A DNA stretch of 26,141 nt from positions 1 to 26,141 of the IMG/VR virus record IMGVR_UViG_3300025107_000012; one strand, given 5' to 3'. This document shows positions 8,353 to 23,491 of the stretch, piece by piece. This stretch comes from a virus. Position numbers and translations under genes: made by a program. Within the stretch, counting starts at the first letter, position 1; each line of letters starts with the position of its first letter. The notes under the pieces were generated by a model that searched no databases, had not been told where the DNA came from, and saw only the letters and a program-made list of their open reading frames with translations.

Positions 8353-8667
8353 TTAATCTACCTTTTTATATCTATCAAATCTATCTATTATAAAATGTAA
8401 TAAATTTGACATTCTGTGAATAATTAAACCATAAAACAGCCAATTAAAATATCCATATACACCCGTTAAATACAAAACAGATAAAGCAACACCTACCCAT
8501 ACAGACAAACAGTAACCGCAATCAAAAAGTTTATGTAAAAAATTAAAAAATTTTCTAGCTCTTCTATTAAAAAAATACCCCCTTACCGGGCTAAAAAATT
8601 CAGACTTTGTAAGTAATTCAGTTATAGCCTCAACTAATATAATCCCTAAAATAAATTTAGTTAACAT
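8353..8667 (-). CDS. DUF1360-like small membrane protein
   Basis: A 104-residue protein with hydrophobic segments near residues 3-18, 53-68 and 72-86. The central motif FDCGYCLSVWVGV matches the signature of the DUF1360 family (CxxCLSVWV next to a membrane helix), found in phages and in some bacterial membrane proteins. The biochemical role of the family is not established. The ATG at 8667 overlaps the 3' end of the Vsr-like endonuclease gene by 11 nt, and its ribosome site (AGGGAA) lies inside that gene. Expression is thus probably coupled to the endonuclease gene or to read-through of the terminator behind the capsid gene. Confidence 0.7.
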   Translation of the reverse strand: MLTKFILGIILVEAITELLTKSEFFSPVRGYFFNRRARKFFNFLHKLFDCGYCLSVWVGVALSVLYLTGVYGYFNWLFYGLIIHRMSNLLHFIIDRFDRYKKVD

Positions 8668-10174
8668 CTATTTCCCTATAAACATTAAGAAGGTTAGTTA
8701 ATTTATAAACATATGTCCTGTGACCACAATCCCAAATACGATCATATCCTTGTGCTTCTCGCAGCTGCCACTCGGTTTTACCAGTTATTCTTTCTTCAGG
8801 AGTCTTACGCAAAGACAGATTTCTATACCTAACCCCATTTTTAGTATAATGAGGTGTATATTTAGTATACTCTTGAAGCTCAAAACCAATAGATTCATAT
8901 ACTGGCTTAATTATATTAGCATAACGCATATCACAGTAAGACTTTATCATATCATAATTGTTTTCTACAGCAAATTTAATAACACGTTTAAATAATTTAC
9001 CTACTCCACCAATTACACTGACAAATCTTTTAGTACAAAATCTTTTTAACTCTAGTACTTTACCATTTGATGTATGTTTTCTGGAAGGAATACCAACGCT
9101 ACCTATAGCTACTAATTCTTTATTATAAACAAGCCCCCAAGCCTTTATTGCCGTAGATTTACCTTGTATATGATTTTCTATAAAAAATTTATTTGCCTCT
9201 GAAGAGGTTAATTCCACTATATCACATTTCCTGGCATAAATTCTAGCATTATGAATACCTAAAGCATTTAGTATTCTAGACATAACTATATCAAAATTAT
9301 TATTTAGTTCATCTTCAAATACAGTAATAAGTCTTATTTCCTCGTTAAAGCAAGCGACCATTTTATTATAATGATATGAACGTTCCTTACCTGAAGCGTC
9401 TCCGTGCCAGTACAAACCACACAATTCGATTGCTAATTTATTATCAGGAAAATAGATATCTAATTCTCTTGGTAATAATATAGTTCTGTTGTTATATTCT
9501 ATATTTGTTTTAGGGTAGTTTTGTAGAAAAAAGTCTCTAACTTTTTTTTCTAAACTTGATACGTAATCACCTGAAGCATAACAATGTAGACATCTACTAT
9601 TATTACCGTCTTTGAAGTTATGAAAACTAGTTAGCCACCTATGTCCTTTTGGGCACTCCAAAAGAAGCTTTGTACTATTATTAATATAGTCGTCTGATAA
9701 AAGTTTATAGTTATTTTCTTCAATGTAATTCTTTACATATTCAAAAGTTAAACGACTTGGTTTTCCTGAAATGTACTCTTTGGCGTCTGGGTACTTTTTT
9801 CTATAATACTCTGCCTTACTTAAAAGACATTTTTCTTTATTATTTTTATAATAGTTTCTACCCTTATCCAACATATACTGCTTCGATCTTCTGGCCTGTA
9901 TTCTTTGATTTTTTATAAAAACTCTAACTTTATCACATTCTTTGGCACCACAATACTCTTTTTGTGGATAATAAGTTTTAAATTCTATAGAACAGGCTTT
10001 GCATGTTTTTATAAATTCAATTGGATGATTTAATCTGTTCTTTTTTGCGTCTAATTTAGTTTGAAGTAGCTTCTTTCCTGTATCCATACAGTTTATGCAG
10101 TACCTCTGTTTTGGGCTAGTTGGGTAGTATTTTATAGAACATAAATCACATATTTTTTCTTTATAACTAGCCAT
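8657..10174 (-). CDS. Vsr-like free-standing homing endonuclease with zinc fingers
   Basis: A 505-residue protein. The N-terminal part carries three probable zinc sites: C9/C12/C26/C29, C58/C61/C75/C80, and a CPKGH plus CLHC pair (C174, H178, C195, C198) of the kind that precedes nuclease domains in phage homing enzymes. Residues 233-290 contain ELDIYFPDNKLAIELCGLYW, with E237, D239 and E250 as candidate metal ligands. This is the pattern of Vsr/EDxHD-type nucleases of the PD-(D/E)XK fold. The C-terminal 190 residues (ELKRFC, GGVGKLFKRVIKFA, CDMRYAN) probably bind DNA, as in related phage endonucleases. It begins 9 nt after the HNH gene and overlaps the DUF1360-like gene. The expected role is to cut genomes lacking the element and spread it. 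Confidence 0.85.
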   Translation of the reverse strand: MASYKEKICDLCSIKYYPTSPKQRYCINCMDTGKKLLQTKLDAKKNRLNHPIEFIKTCKACSIEFKTYYPQKEYCGAKECDKVRVFIKNQRIQARRSKQYMLDKGRNYYKNNKEKCLLSKAEYYRKKYPDAKEYISGKPSRLTFEYVKNYIEENNYKLLSDDYINNSTKLLLECPKGHRWLTSFHNFKDGNNSRCLHCYASGDYVSSLEKKVRDFFLQNYPKTNIEYNNRTILLPRELDIYFPDNKLAIELCGLYWHGDASGKERSYHYNKMVACFNEEIRLITVFEDELNNNFDIVMSRILNALGIHNARIYARKCDIVELTSSEANKFFIENHIQGKSTAIKAWGLVYNKELVAIGSVGIPSRKHTSNGKVLELKRFCTKRFVSVIGGVGKLFKRVIKFAVENNYDMIKSYCDMRYANIIKPVYESIGFELQEYTKYTPHYTKNGVRYRNLSLRKTPEERITGKTEWQLREAQGYDRIWDCGHRTYVYKLTNLLNVYREIDVN

Positions 10175-11226: not shown

Positions 11227-12297
11227 TTATAGAGAACGATCTATAATACCCATTCCTAGCATACGAGAGTCCAAACACGCAAATCCCAAATCAGCCCACC
11301 CAAAAAATCCTTGCTTTTGTTTACGTAGTAAAGTAGGGTCATCGTGAGCCTCAAACTCTTTTCTGATCGGCATAACAAGTGAGTCATTAGTAGTTAGATC
11401 AAAACCAAGCACCTGAGTCTCGCCCAAAGTGTTAATAGTCCCATCAGCATTAACCAGATTTGGGTTTTCTATTGTGTAGGAATTATAAGCCTCACTACCG
11501 TCAGCAATAAATTTACCAAAACTAGAAGCATTACCGTTAATATTATACATACCGGTTGCACCTAAATGCTGTACCTCATGTAACTGCACATTCCAAATAC
11601 TTCCCATACCTGAAGCTTGAAATATTTCTCTTCTGGTTACTGGATCGATATCTGTATCTGTCCACTCACGTATATCAGCCGCATCTTCTGGGCTAACATA
11701 AAGATCTGTTAGTTTACGGCCAGTTCTCTTGAATCCTACAATCATCTTGTTTATCAATTCCTTCGAAAGATAACCAGCTCCAGTAGAAGCCGGATTAATT
11801 TCATAAATAGGAGCAGGTCTAGCACCTAATAAACCTTTACCAGAAAAAGAAGTTGTTGCGGCCGGCATAATTACTCTCCAACCACATTCTTCTTCATAAT
11901 TTGCTAAGTCTTTAGCAGCCCTAGCAGCAGCTTTTTGTGGAATATCAATTCTAGAATCTCTAGCATATGTTATCTTCCAATCATAAGCTGTATCAATTGT
12001 GAATGTTGGTACAAACACCTCTTCCCCTATACCCTCAATAAAGTTCTGAGCAATATAACCTAGTCCTGGTAAAACCCACACTGGAATCTCAAAATCCTCT
12101 GCTATTGGATAAACAGCCTGAGCACCAGGAGCTAAACGTTCTACAGCAAAGAGATGTCTCATGATAGACTCTAATTCAATTTTTTGAAGTATTGGTACAG
12201 TAAGAGCTGAAGCAAAAGCTCTATATGCAGCCAATCCTTCAGGGGTATGAACTTCTGCGGTTGCCCTAAAAAGTTCCTGCATTTCTTTTCGTTCCAT
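11227..12297 (-). CDS. Major capsid protein, HK97 fold
   Basis: A 356-residue protein started by ATG with TAGGAGG upstream. The length, absence of cysteine-rich or membrane segments, and order of elements fit the HK97-fold major capsid proteins: a short helical N-arm, an E-loop-like region (PIAEDFEIPVWVLPG), a spine-helix region with charged Ala-rich sequence (AAARAAKDLANYEEE), and a beta-rich P domain ending in FFGWADLGFACLDSR. It lies after portal, protease, scaffold and decoration genes, the standard head-gene order, and a strong terminator follows. The sequence most resembles large-capsid myovirus versions in my recollection, but the assignment rests mainly on context and overall pattern. 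Confidence 0.85.
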   Translation of the reverse strand: MERKEMQELFRATAEVHTPEGLAAYRAFASALTVPILQKIELESIMRHLFAVERLAPGAQAVYPIAEDFEIPVWVLPGLGYIAQNFIEGIGEEVFVPTFTIDTAYDWKITYARDSRIDIPQKAAARAAKDLANYEEECGWRVIMPAATTSFSGKGLLGARPAPIYEINPASTGAGYLSKELINKMIVGFKRTGRKLTDLYVSPEDAADIREWTDTDIDPVTRREIFQASGMGSIWNVQLHEVQHLGATGMYNINGNASSFGKFIADGSEAYNSYTIENPNLVNADGTINTLGETQVLGFDLTTNDSLVMPIRKEFEAHDDPTLLRKQKQGFFGWADLGFACLDSRMLGMGIIDRSL

Positions 12298-15472: not shown

Positions 15473-17398
15473 TTATTGTTCACGTCTTATTCTACTTAAC
15501 TCATATAAAAAAGCTTCATATTGTTCGGAATCCATATTTTTTACAACATCTATTATAGTAATAGAAGATTCTGTTTGTTTAGGATTCTTAGTTGTTTGTC
15601 TTACTATCTTATCTGGATTGTTTTCTTTTGTCTTCTTTGTTGCCGGCTTACCTTTAGGTCTTCCAGAAGAGGGTGTACCAACTGGGGCCCCTTGCGAAGG
15701 CTGTGACTTAGCTTGTTGCCAAGGCGATCCTAAAATGCCAAAAATTCCATCTTCTACCAGAGGTATTTCGTTAGTCATGTTCTCTAATTCATTAGCATAG
15801 TCAAAACCTAATGCCTCTAGCGCAGTTTCATAACTTAACATCCTTCTATCAACTAGTTGAGCAAGAGTACTCATATATAGAATAGTATCTTTAAGTATAC
15901 CTTCATCCCATCTAACTTTTGGAAATCTATCAAAACCCATAGCCTCGGCTATAAGCCTGTACTCTTTGTATATCCAGCGAGTAACTTGTCGTCTGGCGTA
16001 ATTAATTTCCTCCATAAGCCCCTTTATTACTAAAGAGGCTTCGGCAGTACTTATATCACCAGTACCGTCTATAAAAGCCCTTGTAATAGCTAAACCACCT
16101 GTAATATCATCATTAACTTGAGCATACTTCTCTTTACCTAAAATACTTGAAATTTCTGGACTAACTATTTTTTCTACCTTCAAAGTGTGATTCCACACAA
16201 CATCAAAAGATTTTGATGGTGTATTAAATAACTGAGCTATCGCTTCAAGTTCTGCCTCTTGTTGCACAGGAAACTCATCAGAACCAATAGTAATTTTTAA
16301 AATATAGTTAGAAATACCATCCAAAGTACTTAAGTCTGCCTCTTTTAATGCTTTTTTATATTCAATACTATCAAATATTCTTAGAGATCTAGGTTTAGCA
16401 TAACGCTCATATGGTTGCTTTCTGTAAAAAATGTTTCCTACTAATCTAGAATCTAGTAATACTTCACCGCCTTTTTCTGAAGCGCTTTTTATATCTGAAG
16501 GTAGAGATTTTAACATTGTTTTTTCTTCCTCAGAAAGATCTTTATTGTCTTTTTTAATTGTAGCTAATAATTCTGGAGGTAGTTTTAATCTAATAGATAA
16601 TTTACTAAACAGCAAACTGCCATCTATAGTAACTAATTCAGGATTTAAAACAGTGTAGGATATAGGTAAATGTCCTTTTGACCATATATTTTTCTTTGCT
16701 GATTGTTCTAATTTAGCAAGCTGTAGCTTATCAAAGTTTTTATCTTTTTTTACTTCTTCTAATAATAAGGCTAATTCTTTTTTAAAAGAGGCCTCTATAT
16801 CTTCTAGTCTACCTTTGGCTTTTACTTGATCTACTTTTTTTGCTTTTTTTCCTGGCGCCGGAGAAACTATTGAAACTCTAGGTTCATATTTAGCTATAGC
16901 CTTGTATGTACTTACATTTCCTGTTTTAAAGAATTCAAGAAATACCCATTCCAACACCTCATCAAAGCCCACATCGAAAGCCCAAGTGTCGTAGAAATTT
17001 TTTATATCATGGTCATCAATATCATGCTCAAAACCTTTAGCAGCCATTGAGGCTAGTAAATTAACAGCACTTCCTAAAATAGGTTCCGTATAGTAGTATT
17101 TATTGGCCTTTTTTATAGCCTCTGTTGGACTCAGATCAAAAGGATCTTTGGCTGATAAATCTAAAACACCCCTACCTACAGAGTCTCTAGTTATAGTAGA
17201 AGCTTTTTCCCTAAATATATGCGGAATAATAGCAGACTCTGGTTTAAGATATGCTAGTGCTTTTGTGTTTTTTTCTGTTGGGTTTAAAAATAAAGTAGAA
17301 GTACCATTAGTCTCATTTATTTCAATATTCCTTATTCCAACGTCAGGATAACGAGCCCTAAGCTCTTCTGTAATCTTATTTGCTGTTTCTTGATCCAC
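15473..17398 (-). CDS. Portal protein
   Basis: The start is GTG at 17398, with GGAGAG about 7 nt upstream. The 641-residue product fits the size and layout of phage portal proteins: a mixed N-terminal region (SPTEAIKKANKYYYTEPI), a central alpha/beta wing and stem part, and the helical crown-side motif LSYETALEALGFDYANELE, which strongly resembles the conserved C-terminal helix of portals. The last 80 residues are a basic, Pro/Lys-rich low-complexity tail followed by a short helix (SEQYEAFLYELSRIRREQ). Twelve copies would form the vertex through which the terminase pumps DNA. It lies between the 110-residue gene and the protease. Confidence 0.87.
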   Translation of the reverse strand: MDQETANKITEELRARYPDVGIRNIEINETNGTSTLFLNPTEKNTKALAYLKPESAIIPHIFREKASTITRDSVGRGVLDLSAKDPFDLSPTEAIKKANKYYYTEPILGSAVNLLASMAAKGFEHDIDDHDIKNFYDTWAFDVGFDEVLEWVFLEFFKTGNVSTYKAIAKYEPRVSIVSPAPGKKAKKVDQVKAKGRLEDIEASFKKELALLLEEVKKDKNFDKLQLAKLEQSAKKNIWSKGHLPISYTVLNPELVTIDGSLLFSKLSIRLKLPPELLATIKKDNKDLSEEEKTMLKSLPSDIKSASEKGGEVLLDSRLVGNIFYRKQPYERYAKPRSLRIFDSIEYKKALKEADLSTLDGISNYILKITIGSDEFPVQQEAELEAIAQLFNTPSKSFDVVWNHTLKVEKIVSPEISSILGKEKYAQVNDDITGGLAITRAFIDGTGDISTAEASLVIKGLMEEINYARRQVTRWIYKEYRLIAEAMGFDRFPKVRWDEGILKDTILYMSTLAQLVDRRMLSYETALEALGFDYANELENMTNEIPLVEDGIFGILGSPWQQAKSQPSQGAPVGTPSSGRPKGKPATKKTKENNPDKIVRQTTKNPKQTESSITIIDVVKNMDSEQYEAFLYELSRIRREQ

Positions 17399-19156: not shown

Positions 19157-22100
19157 TTATTTCTTTTTACTTAAAATAGCCATACTTAATCCCTTCTTAG
19201 TGGAACTATGACTAGCGCCTGTTTTATCTAAAACTGTCCAGGAACTTCCTGGGTGATGTGACCTAACCATACCACTAACATTATGAAGTACAGGATCAGT
19301 ATCCCCCTCTATCTCCTTTTCTACTAAACGTATACCGTATCCAGCCAAAATCAAAGCAGAATATAAGTCCTTGTTTTGTCCTTTTTTAGGAGTATCAAAA
19401 TGCATAGCCCCACCAGAAGTTGGTGTAACTATAATATTAAGCATTTGTTTTTTTAAATCTTCTACAGTCTCATATCTAATAGCCTCCATATCTATAGTAG
19501 ATACTGGGGGTTGTGGGAACAATAATTTCTTATCCTCCAACAAAGACAATGTAGCAAAATTAGCATCGGTTATCCAGGATGTATTAAAATTAACCATCTC
19601 AAGAATATGTCTACCCTGCATATTTCTATGTTCATCGTTAGTTCTGTCTATAATAGGTGTCTTTCCACCATAACCTTCTTCCAATAAATCCATTACAGCC
19701 TTTCCGCCGCCGCCTTTATCCATAAACAACCTTATAACTCTATAGTTATCACAAACATCCTGGATGGCGGATGTTAGTTCTTGGGTAGTATGTTTTTTAA
19801 GTTCAATTACATTTACTATTCTATTGACAGTTCCTATTTTAACTATAACTACACCACAACTGGCACTACCTGCTTGGTTTGGGTCAACTCCAACAATGTA
19901 TTGACCTTCCCTATCACCCGCCAGCTCTATATAAAAATTGGAACCCAAAGTACATGATTCTAACAAAGATGCTTTGAAAAAACCATCAGAATCTGAAACC
20001 ATAGCAGCCTCGTATTCCATACGAAACTCATGATTAGACATAACTCTTTTAGCTTCTTCAATATTATTTTTATCTAAAAACCCTTCTGGCAATAATGTAT
20101 ATGGTATTTGGTGAACAACAAAAGGACACTTAGAACTCAATAGATCACATTCTTCCATCTTTTTCCAATAAGCTCGCATCCTATTATACATATGATTGAA
20201 CTTATAATATCCTGAAGAGGTCATTATCATTTTATTCACCAATTCATCTTCAAAATCACTATCAATTGCTAAGCCTGCCTCAAGCAAAAGTTTTTTTCTT
20301 TCTAAAGCACGTACTTGTTCCATAGGATCCTGTTTGGTGGCACCCATAGGGCGTAAAACCATATCAACTATTTTGTTGGGAACCTGTGCTAGTTCATCTA
20401 CACATACCAAGTAAAAACGAGAACCACGTATTTTTGAACCATCATTACCTATTGGTAGTGCCTCTATAAAAGAGCCATTTTTACCACCAACAGCTTTAAA
20501 TTTTAAATTATGCGTATCTGCTCCGTGTGTAGGAGGACCAACACACGCTTCTCTAAATATAGATGATTTTGAGTATAGTTTTTCAATCTCACTAAACATC
20601 ATTTTTGCTTGTCTAAAAGACGGGGCTATTAACCCAACTCTGTAACCTGGGTATAATAAACAACTTAGAGCAGATAACAAACCTTGTAAATATGTATTGT
20701 GGTTTATAAAACCATTTGCAAAGTAATTAGGCTCTATGCTACATACCTCATCCATCTCAAAATCATAACAATCACCCTTCCAATCATCTACATACACTAC
20801 TGTATCAAAAAAATAGTTAGTTTTTAGAATATCTAAAAGTAGATTAAACTTGTCAATAAAATAACTATTTATTGTATAAGTACTTGAAGATATAATTTTT
20901 ATAATATCATGAATAAAGATACTAAGTGTAGAATAAGTTACTTCTTTTTTATTGCTTTTTTTAAATAATAAAAATTTTCCTGGAAAATTGTTACAATTCT
21001 TATTATTAAGTAATAGTAATATCTGTCTTAAATCCCAACAAATATCTTTTATATAAGGAATAGTATCTTTATTAACATTTAACTTCTTAGACTCAAAATA
21101 TTCATTTAGTATTTTTTGTTTTCTAGTTAACCTAAAACCAATTAACTCTTTAAACTTGAAAGCGTCTTCTGAAAACATATCAAGTAAGTAAGCTTTTCCA
21201 AAATTAGATTTGGTTTTTTTCTTCCTTAATCTGGCCACTATTCCAAAATTAAGAAGCATCAATTGTATCTCTATTAAAAGTTTTTTAGACACAGAACAAC
21301 ATGACACTCCGCCAGACCTTTTATCAACAGTACCATCAGTATCAAAATATCCCTGTAAAAAAGCTACTTGTGATTGTCTAGTAGAAGTTCTAATTGAATA
21401 TGGTACTGATTTATTATAAGATAAAACCCTAGCTATACCGTACTTATCAAAAAACCATGAAAAATTATTATTACTAAAACCTATTCTTAGAGTACAATCA
21501 CCACTTTCGTACGATACACTGTATGGTATATTATTACGTATACAGTATTGAGAGGAAAAGGATAATATTTGTTCATCCTCAGATGTCAAAGAAAAACTGT
21601 TTTTGTTTATACAACCGTCTCCTATCAATAAACCTATTAAATAAGCGTCATCTAAAGAAACTAAAGTATAACCAAAAGAGTTGTTCCCCCTCTGTAAGCA
21701 CACTTTATCGCCTGGAATAAAATCTTCTAGTTTTTTATATATAAATTCACCATCTTTATTTAAAGTAAGTAGTGGATGGTGATTACTGCCTTTACTAATA
21801 AATCCATTATTAGTTTTTAGTTGCTTACCTTCTATACCCTTTTCTAGACACAATCTTTTTGTACCCTTAAACCCATTTGAAGTATGTATATTAATATTCC
21901 AATCTATAACTTCTTCTTCACCGTCACGTAAATATGATGGTATAGGCGGTAAAATTTCATTTAAATAAACCAACCCTTTGTTTTTTTCATTAATAATACT
22001 TGATGTACAAACGCTTTTACCGAAACCTCTACCACATACAGCAATAACATAATCCTTAAACCACATGTCCTCAAAAACTACTCTTTGTATTGGAGCTAAA

Positions 22101-22213
22101 TCTACTCCTAATAGATCGTACACTGCCACGCATGGATTCTGTCTATAAAAAGCTATTAACTGAGCACCTTGGCCCATAATAACATCTATTTTTTTATCTC
22201 TATCAATAATCAT
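19157..22213 (-). CDS. Terminase large subunit precursor containing an intein
   Basis: A 1018-residue precursor; removal of residues 69-506 leaves about 580 residues, normal for a phage large terminase. The ATPase part has Walker A GRGFGKS (61-67), Walker B FYLVCVDELAQ (D606, E607) and the coupling motif TSSG (665-668). The RNase H-like nuclease part has D777 (YIVGVDPN), D832 (IRLFMD) and D949 (NKDLYSALILAG) as the metal-binding acids. The enzyme cuts concatemeric DNA and pumps it through the portal. The ATG overlaps the end of the small-terminase candidate by 11 nt. The intein splits the P-loop region two residues after the Walker serine, so the precursor should lack ATPase activity until splicing. 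Confidence 0.95.
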   Translation of the reverse strand: MIIDRDKKIDVIMGQGAQLIAFYRQNPCVAVYDLLGVDLAPIQRVVFEDMWFKDYVIAVCGRGFGKSVCTSSIINEKNKGLVYLNEILPPIPSYLRDGEEEVIDWNINIHTSNGFKGTKRLCLEKGIEGKQLKTNNGFISKGSNHHPLLTLNKDGEFIYKKLEDFIPGDKVCLQRGNNSFGYTLVSLDDAYLIGLLIGDGCINKNSFSLTSEDEQILSFSSQYCIRNNIPYSVSYESGDCTLRIGFSNNNFSWFFDKYGIARVLSYNKSVPYSIRTSTRQSQVAFLQGYFDTDGTVDKRSGGVSCCSVSKKLLIEIQLMLLNFGIVARLRKKKTKSNFGKAYLLDMFSEDAFKFKELIGFRLTRKQKILNEYFESKKLNVNKDTIPYIKDICWDLRQILLLLNNKNCNNFPGKFLLFKKSNKKEVTYSTLSIFIHDIIKIISSSTYTINSYFIDKFNLLLDILKTNYFFDTVVYVDDWKGDCYDFEMDEVCSIEPNYFANGFINHNTYLQGLLSALSCLLYPGYRVGLIAPSFRQAKMMFSEIEKLYSKSSIFREACVGPPTHGADTHNLKFKAVGGKNGSFIEALPIGNDGSKIRGSRFYLVCVDELAQVPNKIVDMVLRPMGATKQDPMEQVRALERKKLLLEAGLAIDSDFEDELVNKMIMTSSGYYKFNHMYNRMRAYWKKMEECDLLSSKCPFVVHQIPYTLLPEGFLDKNNIEEAKRVMSNHEFRMEYEAAMVSDSDGFFKASLLESCTLGSNFYIELAGDREGQYIVGVDPNQAGSASCGVVIVKIGTVNRIVNVIELKKHTTQELTSAIQDVCDNYRVIRLFMDKGGGGKAVMDLLEEGYGGKTPIIDRTNDEHRNMQGRHILEMVNFNTSWITDANFATLSLLEDKKLLFPQPPVSTIDMEAIRYETVEDLKKQMLNIIVTPTSGGAMHFDTPKKGQNKDLYSALILAGYGIRLVEKEIEGDTDPVLHNVSGMVRSHHPGSSWTVLDKTGASHSSTKKGLSMAILSKKK
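20696..22009 (-). mobile_element. Intein with LAGLIDADG homing endonuclease in terminase Walker A
   Basis: It covers residues 69-506 (438 residues) of the terminase precursor. Splicing features are present: C69 as first residue, a block-B-like S143-x-x-H146-P, a block-F-like CYDFEMDE, and the end ANGFINHN with penultimate H505, N506 and T507 as the first residue of the C-extein. The joined extein reads GRGFGKSV-TYLQG, a normal P-loop. Two LAGLIDADG helices, LIGLLIGDG (D199) and FLQGYFDTDG (D291/D293), indicate an intact homing endonuclease. This element is visibly more AT-rich than the flanking terminase sequence, suggesting later arrival. Confidence 0.93.
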
Positions 22214-22745
22214 CGTTATTTGCTTCTGCCTTTTTTATATCATCTACATCATACCTATTTCCTGGAGTTTTAGTTAGTTGTTCAAGTGCGATACCCTGTT
22301 CTAGTTTTAATTTTCTAGCTCTATCTTCCATTGCATGTTTTTTAATATTGTCAAAAGCTACAGCTAGGTCTACAATAGATAAACCTTTAAATTCATTAGG
22401 ATCCAGCCTATCTCTTCTCCGTAAAGATAAACTTTCTTTTATTTTTTCTGTTTGTTTTCTTAGTTTTTCTATTGAAGTTGATATATCTATTTGTCTATCT
22501 GGTTTATCTTTACTTGTTTTTAGTAATCTTATTTCCAACACTCTGTTCATTGAAAGGGATATTATATCATCTAGGTCTGCTGAAGATAAATCATCTTCAT
22601 CAAAATCCTTAATATAAATATCAACCAACGTATTATAAATATCTAATTCCTCTTCATTAAATAGATCTTTTGCCGGAAAAATTTCTTTTAATAGCTTTTT
22701 TGCTGAAGGAGGGCTTTTCGGCCTTCCTGATCCAGAACCACCCAT
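22203..22745 (-). CDS. Terminase small subunit candidate
   Basis: A 180-residue protein with ATG preceded by AGGAGA. The N-terminus MGGSGSGRPKSPPSAKK is typical of many phage small terminases. It is followed by acidic helical sequence (NEEELDIYNTLVDIY) and a charged coiled-coil-like region (IEKLRKQTEKIKESL). Small terminases recognise phage DNA and stimulate the large subunit. The 11-nt overlap with the large terminase gene strongly supports this role. I did not see an unmistakable helix-turn-helix, so the call depends on N-terminus, size and position. Confidence 0.72.
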   Translation of the reverse strand: MGGSGSGRPKSPPSAKKLLKEIFPAKDLFNEEELDIYNTLVDIYIKDFDEDDLSSADLDDIISLSMNRVLEIRLLKTSKDKPDRQIDISTSIEKLRKQTEKIKESLSLRRRDRLDPNEFKGLSIVDLAVAFDNIKKHAMEDRARKLKLEQGIALEQLTKTPGNRYDVDDIKKAEANNDDY

Positions 22746-22758
22746 ATTGATTGGTCTC

Positions 22759-23169
22759 CTAAAATAGTTTACCTACAATTATATTATTTAATATACAATA
22801 CTCTTTAAGTTCTAAAATAAATTCAGGAGTAAGTTCGTGACTAAATAGTTCTATGTTCTGACCATAATCAATTTCTATTTTTCTTATATTACTCATGGCC
22901 CGTTCAGTCTTTACATCATCACATTCATCTATAGCATCACTAGTAGAATTTAACCACTTACAAAGACTATCATCCGTTACCCTACAATACTTATCTATAA
23001 TCTCTTTAGAAACAGGATGTTGTCTTCTAAAGTATAATATCAATGTCCTGGATATTTTATCTTTAGTTTCCTGTTTATGTTTTTGTCCTATTTTTGAATC
23101 ACTAATAGCTTTCTTACTAGCATCACTCAATTTGAAACCTAAAGGTCTACCCCTTCGCCTAATCCTCAT
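22759..23169 (-). CDS. Small protein with a NUMOD3-like DNA-binding motif
   Basis: The start is placed at ATG 23169, which has TGGAGGA 5 nt upstream; an in-frame start 21 nt earlier lacks this. The 136-residue product begins MRIRRRGRPLGFKL. Residues 14-41 (LSDASKKAISDSKIGQKHK plus ETKDKIS) match the repeated pattern of the NUMOD3 motif, which binds DNA in GIY-YIG and HNH homing endonucleases. No nuclease domain follows. The C-terminal half (DECDDVKTERAMSN, then IELFSHELTPEFILELKE) is unrecognised. It overlaps the zinc-ribbon gene by 11 nt and is just upstream of the small-terminase candidate. It could be a remnant of a homing endonuclease or a domesticated DNA-binding protein. Confidence 0.65.
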   Translation of the reverse strand: MRIRRRGRPLGFKLSDASKKAISDSKIGQKHKQETKDKISRTLILYFRRQHPVSKEIIDKYCRVTDDSLCKWLNSTSDAIDECDDVKTERAMSNIRKIEIDYGQNIELFSHELTPEFILELKEYCILNNIIVGKLF

Positions 23170-23491
23170 TAAGTTCCTCCACTGCAGCATACTGATTACA
23201 TTGTGAACAAATCACCCCTACCGTATTAACACTTACATATTTTACACTACCACAACTTTGGCATCTGGCTACTTTTTGTCTAGTGGCTTTTTTTGGTTTA
23301 GAAAAAGAAAAAGGCAGATTTTTATTATCATCCACCAGTTTACTTTCTTTATGAATATGCTCTCTGTGTTTTTTTAAACCAATAGTTGGCTCGTACCGTC
23401 TTCCTTTCTCTCCTGGAGATAATTCACGACCTCCATCCATTACTGAGTTTTTTACATATTTAGAAATAGCCTTAATAGCTTCATTGTTCAT
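23159..23491 (-). CDS. Small zinc-ribbon protein
   Basis: A 110-residue protein, ATG after a GGGG ribosome site. The N-terminal 70 residues are basic and polar. A zinc ribbon follows with C77, C80, C95 and C98 (CQSCGS and CSQC), and the tail is acidic (AAVEELNED). Such ribbons bind nucleic acid or protein, for example in transcription or late-gene control factors. The specific role is unknown. It overlaps the NUMOD3-like gene by 11 nt, so the two are probably translated together. Confidence 0.7.
   Translation of the reverse strand: MNNEAIKAISKYVKNSVMDGGRELSPGEKGRRYEPTIGLKKHREHIHKESKLVDDNKNLPFSFSKPKKATRQKVARCQSCGSVKYVSVNTVGVICSQCNQYAAVEELNED

Follow-up and report, generated by a model that had tools for sequence, protein, structure and literature searches.

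A homing-competent-looking intein at the Walker A Lys/Thr site of a large terminase from an uncultured tailed phage

Terminase inteins are the commonest inteins in mycobacteriophages, where one of them, TerL1-a, sits between the invariant Lys and Thr of the P-loop, a 'classic' P-loop insertion (Kelley et al. 2016, PMC5050341). The same work assayed splicing for five of the seven types of TerL insertion, found that TerL inteins splice in reporters, and showed that two of them, at the other TerL sites b and c, cleave alleles lacking an intein (PMC5050341). Both this kind of element and the Lys/Thr P-loop site in phage terminases are already known. Here we analyzed a viral contig of 26,141 bases (the whole stretch, referred to as the window), whose minus-strand ORF at 19157–22213 encodes a large terminase of 1018 residues interrupted by an intein. 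We consider it very probable that a homing-competent-looking intein has entered this terminase gene, which belongs to an uncultured tailed phage, between the Walker A Lys and Thr; the boundary, the intact residues, alleles with and without the intein, purifying selection and an apparent trace of recent transfer are seen in the sequences.

The PHROG search of the precursor identified it as terminase large subunit (1.4e-20), phrog_2 being the best terminase PHROG, and Pfam gave weak matches to Terminase_6N and Terminase_6C, each below its cut-off. The protein has Walker A GRGFGKT once spliced and Walker B FYLVCVDE, and portal and head genes lie nearby. The first-pass annotation had described a large terminase with an endonuclease-bearing intein in its P-loop, and this description was borne out by Pfam, PHROG and the predicted fold. 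The features of the locus are as follows (a slash marks a splice junction, and site a is the Walker A Lys/Thr site).

19157–20695, stop codon included, minus strand: C-extein, rest of the ATPase and RNase H-like nuclease (Pfam Terminase_6C, 0.0014, 19.0 bits against a cut-off of 22.6; PHROG terminase, 1.4e-20).
20693–20695, minus strand: Thr+1, the Walker A Thr once spliced (DNA junctions, spliced alignment).
20696–22015, minus strand: intein with corrected boundary, 440 residues from S1 to N440, SVCTSS...INHN (intein-free relatives, DNA junctions, spliced alignment).
20696–20782, minus strand: C-terminal splicing blocks WKGDCYDFEM...NGFINHN (D418, H439 and N440 in 20 of 20 aligned inteins).
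20825–21670, limits approximate, minus strand: homing endonuclease region, about intein residues 116–397 (Pfam LAGLIDADG_3, I-DmoI fold match).
21332–21361, minus strand: second LAGLIDADG motif FLQGYFDTDG, acid D227 (aligned inteins).
21614–21643, minus strand: first LAGLIDADG motif YLIGLLIGDG, acid D133 (aligned inteins).
21776–21787, minus strand: splicing block N3 (B), S77-N-H-H80 (H80 in 20 of 20 aligned inteins).
22007–22009, minus strand: codon of the first-pass 'C1', a variable intein residue 3 (comparison of relatives).
22013–22015, minus strand: Ser1 codon AGC, putative first splicing nucleophile (with window and L011 counted, 19 of the 21 site-a inteins have Ser here and the other two, L004 and L041, have Cys).
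22016–22033, minus strand: first part of Walker A, GRGFGK, which the intein splits at K/T (alignment and DNA junctions).
22016–22213, minus strand: N-extein of the large terminase, residues 1–66, ending in ...CGRGFGK (gapless spliced alignment with five intein-free relatives).

The insertion site was read from relatives with and without the intein. By scanning viral contigs with the precursor, 41 related loci were obtained, several of them intein-free, and a second scan with the spliced alignment added more; because the searches were biased, the occupied and empty counts should not be taken as frequencies. Fifty distinct rows with a readable site were intein-free at site a (6 of them carrying an intein at a second site and 44 carrying none) and all read GK[TS][FY] with nothing extra (among others, GRGFGK-TFTLG, SRGLGK-TYLNG, GRGYGK-SFLLG and GRGFGK-TFLSG); occupied rows numbered 19, to which the window and L011 were added to give 21 inteins with a readable start. 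Since GK is directly followed by [T/S]-[F/Y] in every readable intein-free relative, the insertion falls between the Walker A Lys and Thr, the same P-loop allele as that of TerL1-a. When joined at GK/T, the exteins of the window align without gaps around the site with five intein-free relatives (59–64% identity overall), so that the insert is exact and in frame. At the DNA level, the occupied L010 and the empty L031 share 84% of bases on one flank and 80% on the other, and their similarity breaks at the Lys codon with an ambiguity of four bases. The intein thus covers precursor residues 67–506, and the spliced protein has 578 residues.

Comparison with intein-free homologues, which had been set as the check that could refute the first-pass reading, left its C-terminal junction (HN/T at 20695/20696) unchanged and moved the other: the start had been placed at residue 69 (Cys, 22007–22009), whereas the true one is residue 67 (Ser, 22013–22015), and the lengths become 440 instead of 438 residues for the intein and 578 instead of about 580 for the spliced product. 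The Ser of the precursor 'GKS', two residues past which the intein had been located, is the intein's own residue 1, and the Walker A Thr after splicing comes from Thr+1. Joined at GK/T, the exteins give a normal P-loop; the earlier junction would leave an extra S-V. The corrected junction removes an error that would aim a redox experiment at the wrong residue.

The endonuclease region gave a Pfam LAGLIDADG_3 match of 6.8e-23 on the precursor, and both motifs are present with their acidic residues D133 and D227, in agreement with the previous statement that both LAGLIDADG helices look intact. The AlphaFold2 model had a mean pLDDT of 85 and a pTM of 0.88 (only about 60 pLDDT for the first 20 residues); its best solved matches were the Tli VMA intein 7qss (4.6e-21) and PI-PfuI 1dq3, with PI-SceI and I-DmoI entries lower, and by sequence the family profile matched PI-PfuI at 3.1e-18. 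Splicing, DNA cutting and the chemistry of the window intein we infer from the family. Ser1 would attack the Lys-Ser bond (N-O shift), Thr+1 would take over the N-extein, Asn440 would cyclise, and the exteins would join to give GRGFGK-TYLQG, a normal P-loop. The LAGLIDADG domain would cut intein-free terminase genes at the Lys/Thr site, and repair would copy the intein in.

The relatives at site a comprise empty alleles, alleles occupied by an intein with an intact endonuclease and alleles occupied by one with a dead endonuclease. Judged by motifs, the endonuclease is intact in 13 aligned inteins (window included, divergent L041 left out) and broken in six by loss of one or both motif acids or of the second motif (L017, L019, L020, L025, L038 and L039), and all six broken inteins keep S1, H80, D418, H439 and N440. 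L017 is 99.9–100% identical to L007 except for an 84-codon in-frame deletion that takes out the second LAGLIDADG motif. The extein tree does not separate occupied from empty alleles: the two kinds are intermingled across it, the state changes at least six times on branches with good support, and sister pairs such as L002/L030 and L010/L031 consist of one occupied and one empty allele. L009 and L018 have 89 of 90 bases in common at the 3' end of the intein, as well as the first 20 C-extein bases, after which identity drops to about 63–77%; L018 starts only 90 bases inside the intein at a contig end, so the comparison rests on those 90 intein bases. With their C-terminal exteins otherwise about 69% identical, this pattern looks like recent homing with co-conversion. 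dN/dS in the pair L006/L007 was about 0.10 for the intein and 0.09 for the extein, and wherever there were estimates for both parts, constraint on the splicing part equalled or exceeded that on the endonuclease part, though many dS values were near saturation. The empty allele closest to the window (L044) is only 71% identical and is therefore too far to prove a recent gain in the window's own phage.

Further intein sites were found in the relatives, namely site b (FRQ/S, about 29 residues downstream) and site c (DG/S, before K-I-R-G-S-R); the site c intein has Cys1 and the site b inteins have Ser1 or Cys1. A terminase carries up to two inteins, and the window has site a only. Two-intein terminases (a+b or a+c) are L013, L014, L019, L021, L025, L028, L034, L035, L038, L039 and L042, in which the second inteins lie about 29 and 86 residues from site a in the spliced protein. 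They suit tests of interference between neighbouring homing sites (PMC10643990), and within one set of relatives every stage of the homing cycle is seen, with empty sites, invaded sites, decayed endonucleases and double invasions.

Since the intein splits Walker A, it is reasonable to infer that the unspliced precursor is unable to package, and the P-loop location thus supports the earlier claim that splicing is required for terminase activity. That annotation had gone further and proposed that splicing acts as a late on-switch. As an explanation of the element, this would make the intein a beneficial regulator, whose slow or conditional splicing (dependent on temperature, ATP, DNA or the redox state of, for example, C416) delays terminase activity. 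Such a role is consistent with the expected inactivity of the precursor, with purifying selection acting on intein and extein alike, and with the P-loop intein of archaeal RadA, which splices conditionally through intein-extein contacts (PMC5790916). However, very close relatives (L031 beside L010, L030 beside L002) have the same terminase without the intein, and many other close relatives also lack it; the intein is therefore dispensable and a switch unnecessary. Purifying selection on splicing is to be expected for any intein in an essential protein, its maintenance is explained by the essential host protein, and retention of the element is explained by the homing cycle. No regulatory signal was found, and terminase is already a late function. 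We therefore regard regulation as improbable and keep to invasion by homing.

Ser, rather than Cys, most likely initiates splicing of the homing intein, as judged from the residues at the two candidate starts. Residue 3 of the 21 site-a inteins is Ser in 12, Tyr in three, Asp in two, Cys in two (the window and L021), Ala in one and His in one, and is therefore not a shared nucleophile. The first-pass annotation had taken this Cys as residue 1, and an intein starting at Cys69 of the precursor, with the redox state of Cys1 switching packaging on late in infection, would fit the Cys found there in the window and in L021 and the response of other Cys-dependent inteins to oxidation, as in the DnaB intein, an oxidative-stress sensor (PMC6195587). 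Yet most relatives have S, Y, D, A or H at this position, and the spliced product would keep S-V, two residues found in no intein-free homologue. The spacing of block A to N/D-S/T-L and G14 is canonical only if counted from Ser: N/D-S/T-L at 5–7, G at 14 and E at 20 then match the Cys1 intein L041, CISGDSLVPTSEGFFEIGEL, in a register hand-adjusted past residue 7. With its boundary already refuted by the comparative data, this explanation is highly improbable, and redox control through 'C1' has no basis since that residue is the variable residue 3. We also considered and rejected redox pairing with the Cys in the VCGRG of the extein, where A, C, M and other residues occur whether the intein is there or not. 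That the insert is a non-functional fixed insertion or an assembly artefact has a negligible probability and is refuted by roughly 20 homologues in other contigs that carry an intein at the identical position, along with the open frame, intact motifs and low dN/dS.

The alignment places the window intein, by its sequence, as an apparent Ser1/Thr+1, class-1-type LAGLIDADG intein with oxyester chemistry. The nucleophiles would be Ser1 and Thr+1 (all 21 site-a inteins have Ser or Cys as residue 1), accompanied by S77 to H80 of N3, D418 of C2 and the terminal H439-N440; the N3 S-x-x-H, HN and +1 Thr had been read correctly before, being present in the alignment of site-a inteins. Pfam Intein_splicing matched the precursor at 4.5e-6 and 27 bits, below the curated cut-off of 35.8. 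In class 3 inteins, Cys replaces the block F Asp as internal nucleophile (compare PMC7891396); here Asp418 of block F is kept in all aligned inteins, and the conserved Cys416 sits two residues before it. An apparently variable residue 1 had suggested an intein of class 2 or 3 that lacks the nucleophile; this reading was discarded once the boundary was set at GK/S, and the Asp at F:4 also speaks against class 3.

According to PMC10189870, an NX-motif histidine with Arg/Lys before it is shared by inteins that combine Ser1 with Ser or Thr at +1, with exceptions in 2 of 58 inteins. No conserved NX histidine was found in residues 46–70 across 20 aligned site-a inteins, in an NX register set by hand alignment, and activation of Ser1 must therefore differ or splicing could be slow. 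A W-x-G-D-C-Y-D-F motif at window positions 20768–20782 (minus strand, residues 412–416) is conserved, W412 and C416 included, in every site-a intein except the divergent L041; a scan for the GDCYDF block over Herelleviridae helicase inteins returned nothing. We tentatively raise, as a rather unlikely reading, that this phage Ser1/Thr+1 family dispensed with the NX histidine and that Ser1 is activated otherwise, perhaps via H79, E58 or W412/C416. If true, the family would splice by a chemically distinct form of the oxyester route. The absent histidine offers a cheap test of Ser1 intein activation.

Around the terminase, a portal-like gene (15473–17398, minus strand) and a major head-like gene (11227–12297, minus strand) were found in the window. 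The only named relative of both in the phage collection is Bacillus phage G (497.5 kb; 23–25% identity), and TerL relatives occur on contigs of up to 228–234 kb; therefore, the source is probably a large phage. Among phage records there are no close DNA relatives of the window. An intein-free relative, L043 (QNDS01000009.1), belongs to a MAG labelled Candidatus Fermentibacteria; it and the IMG/VR contig L049 are both 32,411 bases long with the same extein end in a duplicate check, so that this MAG is weak evidence on the host, whose assignment is uncertain. Beside the head genes, positions 8657–10174 (minus strand) encode a free-standing HNH/homing endonuclease of 505 residues (phrog_559, 2.6e-72), with a weak CapR match below the Pfam cut-off; its gene is a second selfish element in the contig. 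The ORF at 22203–22745, with no family match, is in the likely small terminase position, and directly upstream of it, positions 22759–23190 (minus strand) encode a protein of 143 residues in which Pfam places a weak NUMOD3 motif (0.0041, below the cut-off). Neither group I introns nor other Rfam RNAs were found in the window.

Compared with known systems, the window resembles mycobacteriophage TerL1-a in its host protein and its insertion between Walker A Lys and Thr, but TerL1-a belongs to another phage lineage and another terminase family, the window terminase being phrog_2 with weak Terminase_6C. In an isolated phage, Psychrobacillus phage Perkons (MT325768, QJI52506.1), TerL is interrupted at the identical Lys/Thr position by an intein-like insert (RGFGK/CQVGDT...HN/TMIE) which, unlike the window intein, has Cys1; identity over the aligned part is only 25.5%. 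In the PHROGs, phrog_9666, of unknown function, matches precursor residues 65–510, across the intein (1.7e-24). The Ser1/Ser+1 or Thr+1 class 1 inteins PolB16 OarG and Psp Pol-1 (PMC10189870) have oxyester nucleophiles at both junctions, the N3 His and the C2 Asp in common with the window, whereas the site-a family lacks their conserved NX histidine and has a conserved internal C416. PI-PfuI (1dq3) and the Tli VMA intein (7qss) combine the splicing and LAGLIDADG folds as in the window, but come from archaeal hosts and other host genes, at 16–19% identity. The locus and its relatives thus add a well-sampled uncultured phage lineage to the terminases invaded at Walker A Lys/Thr.
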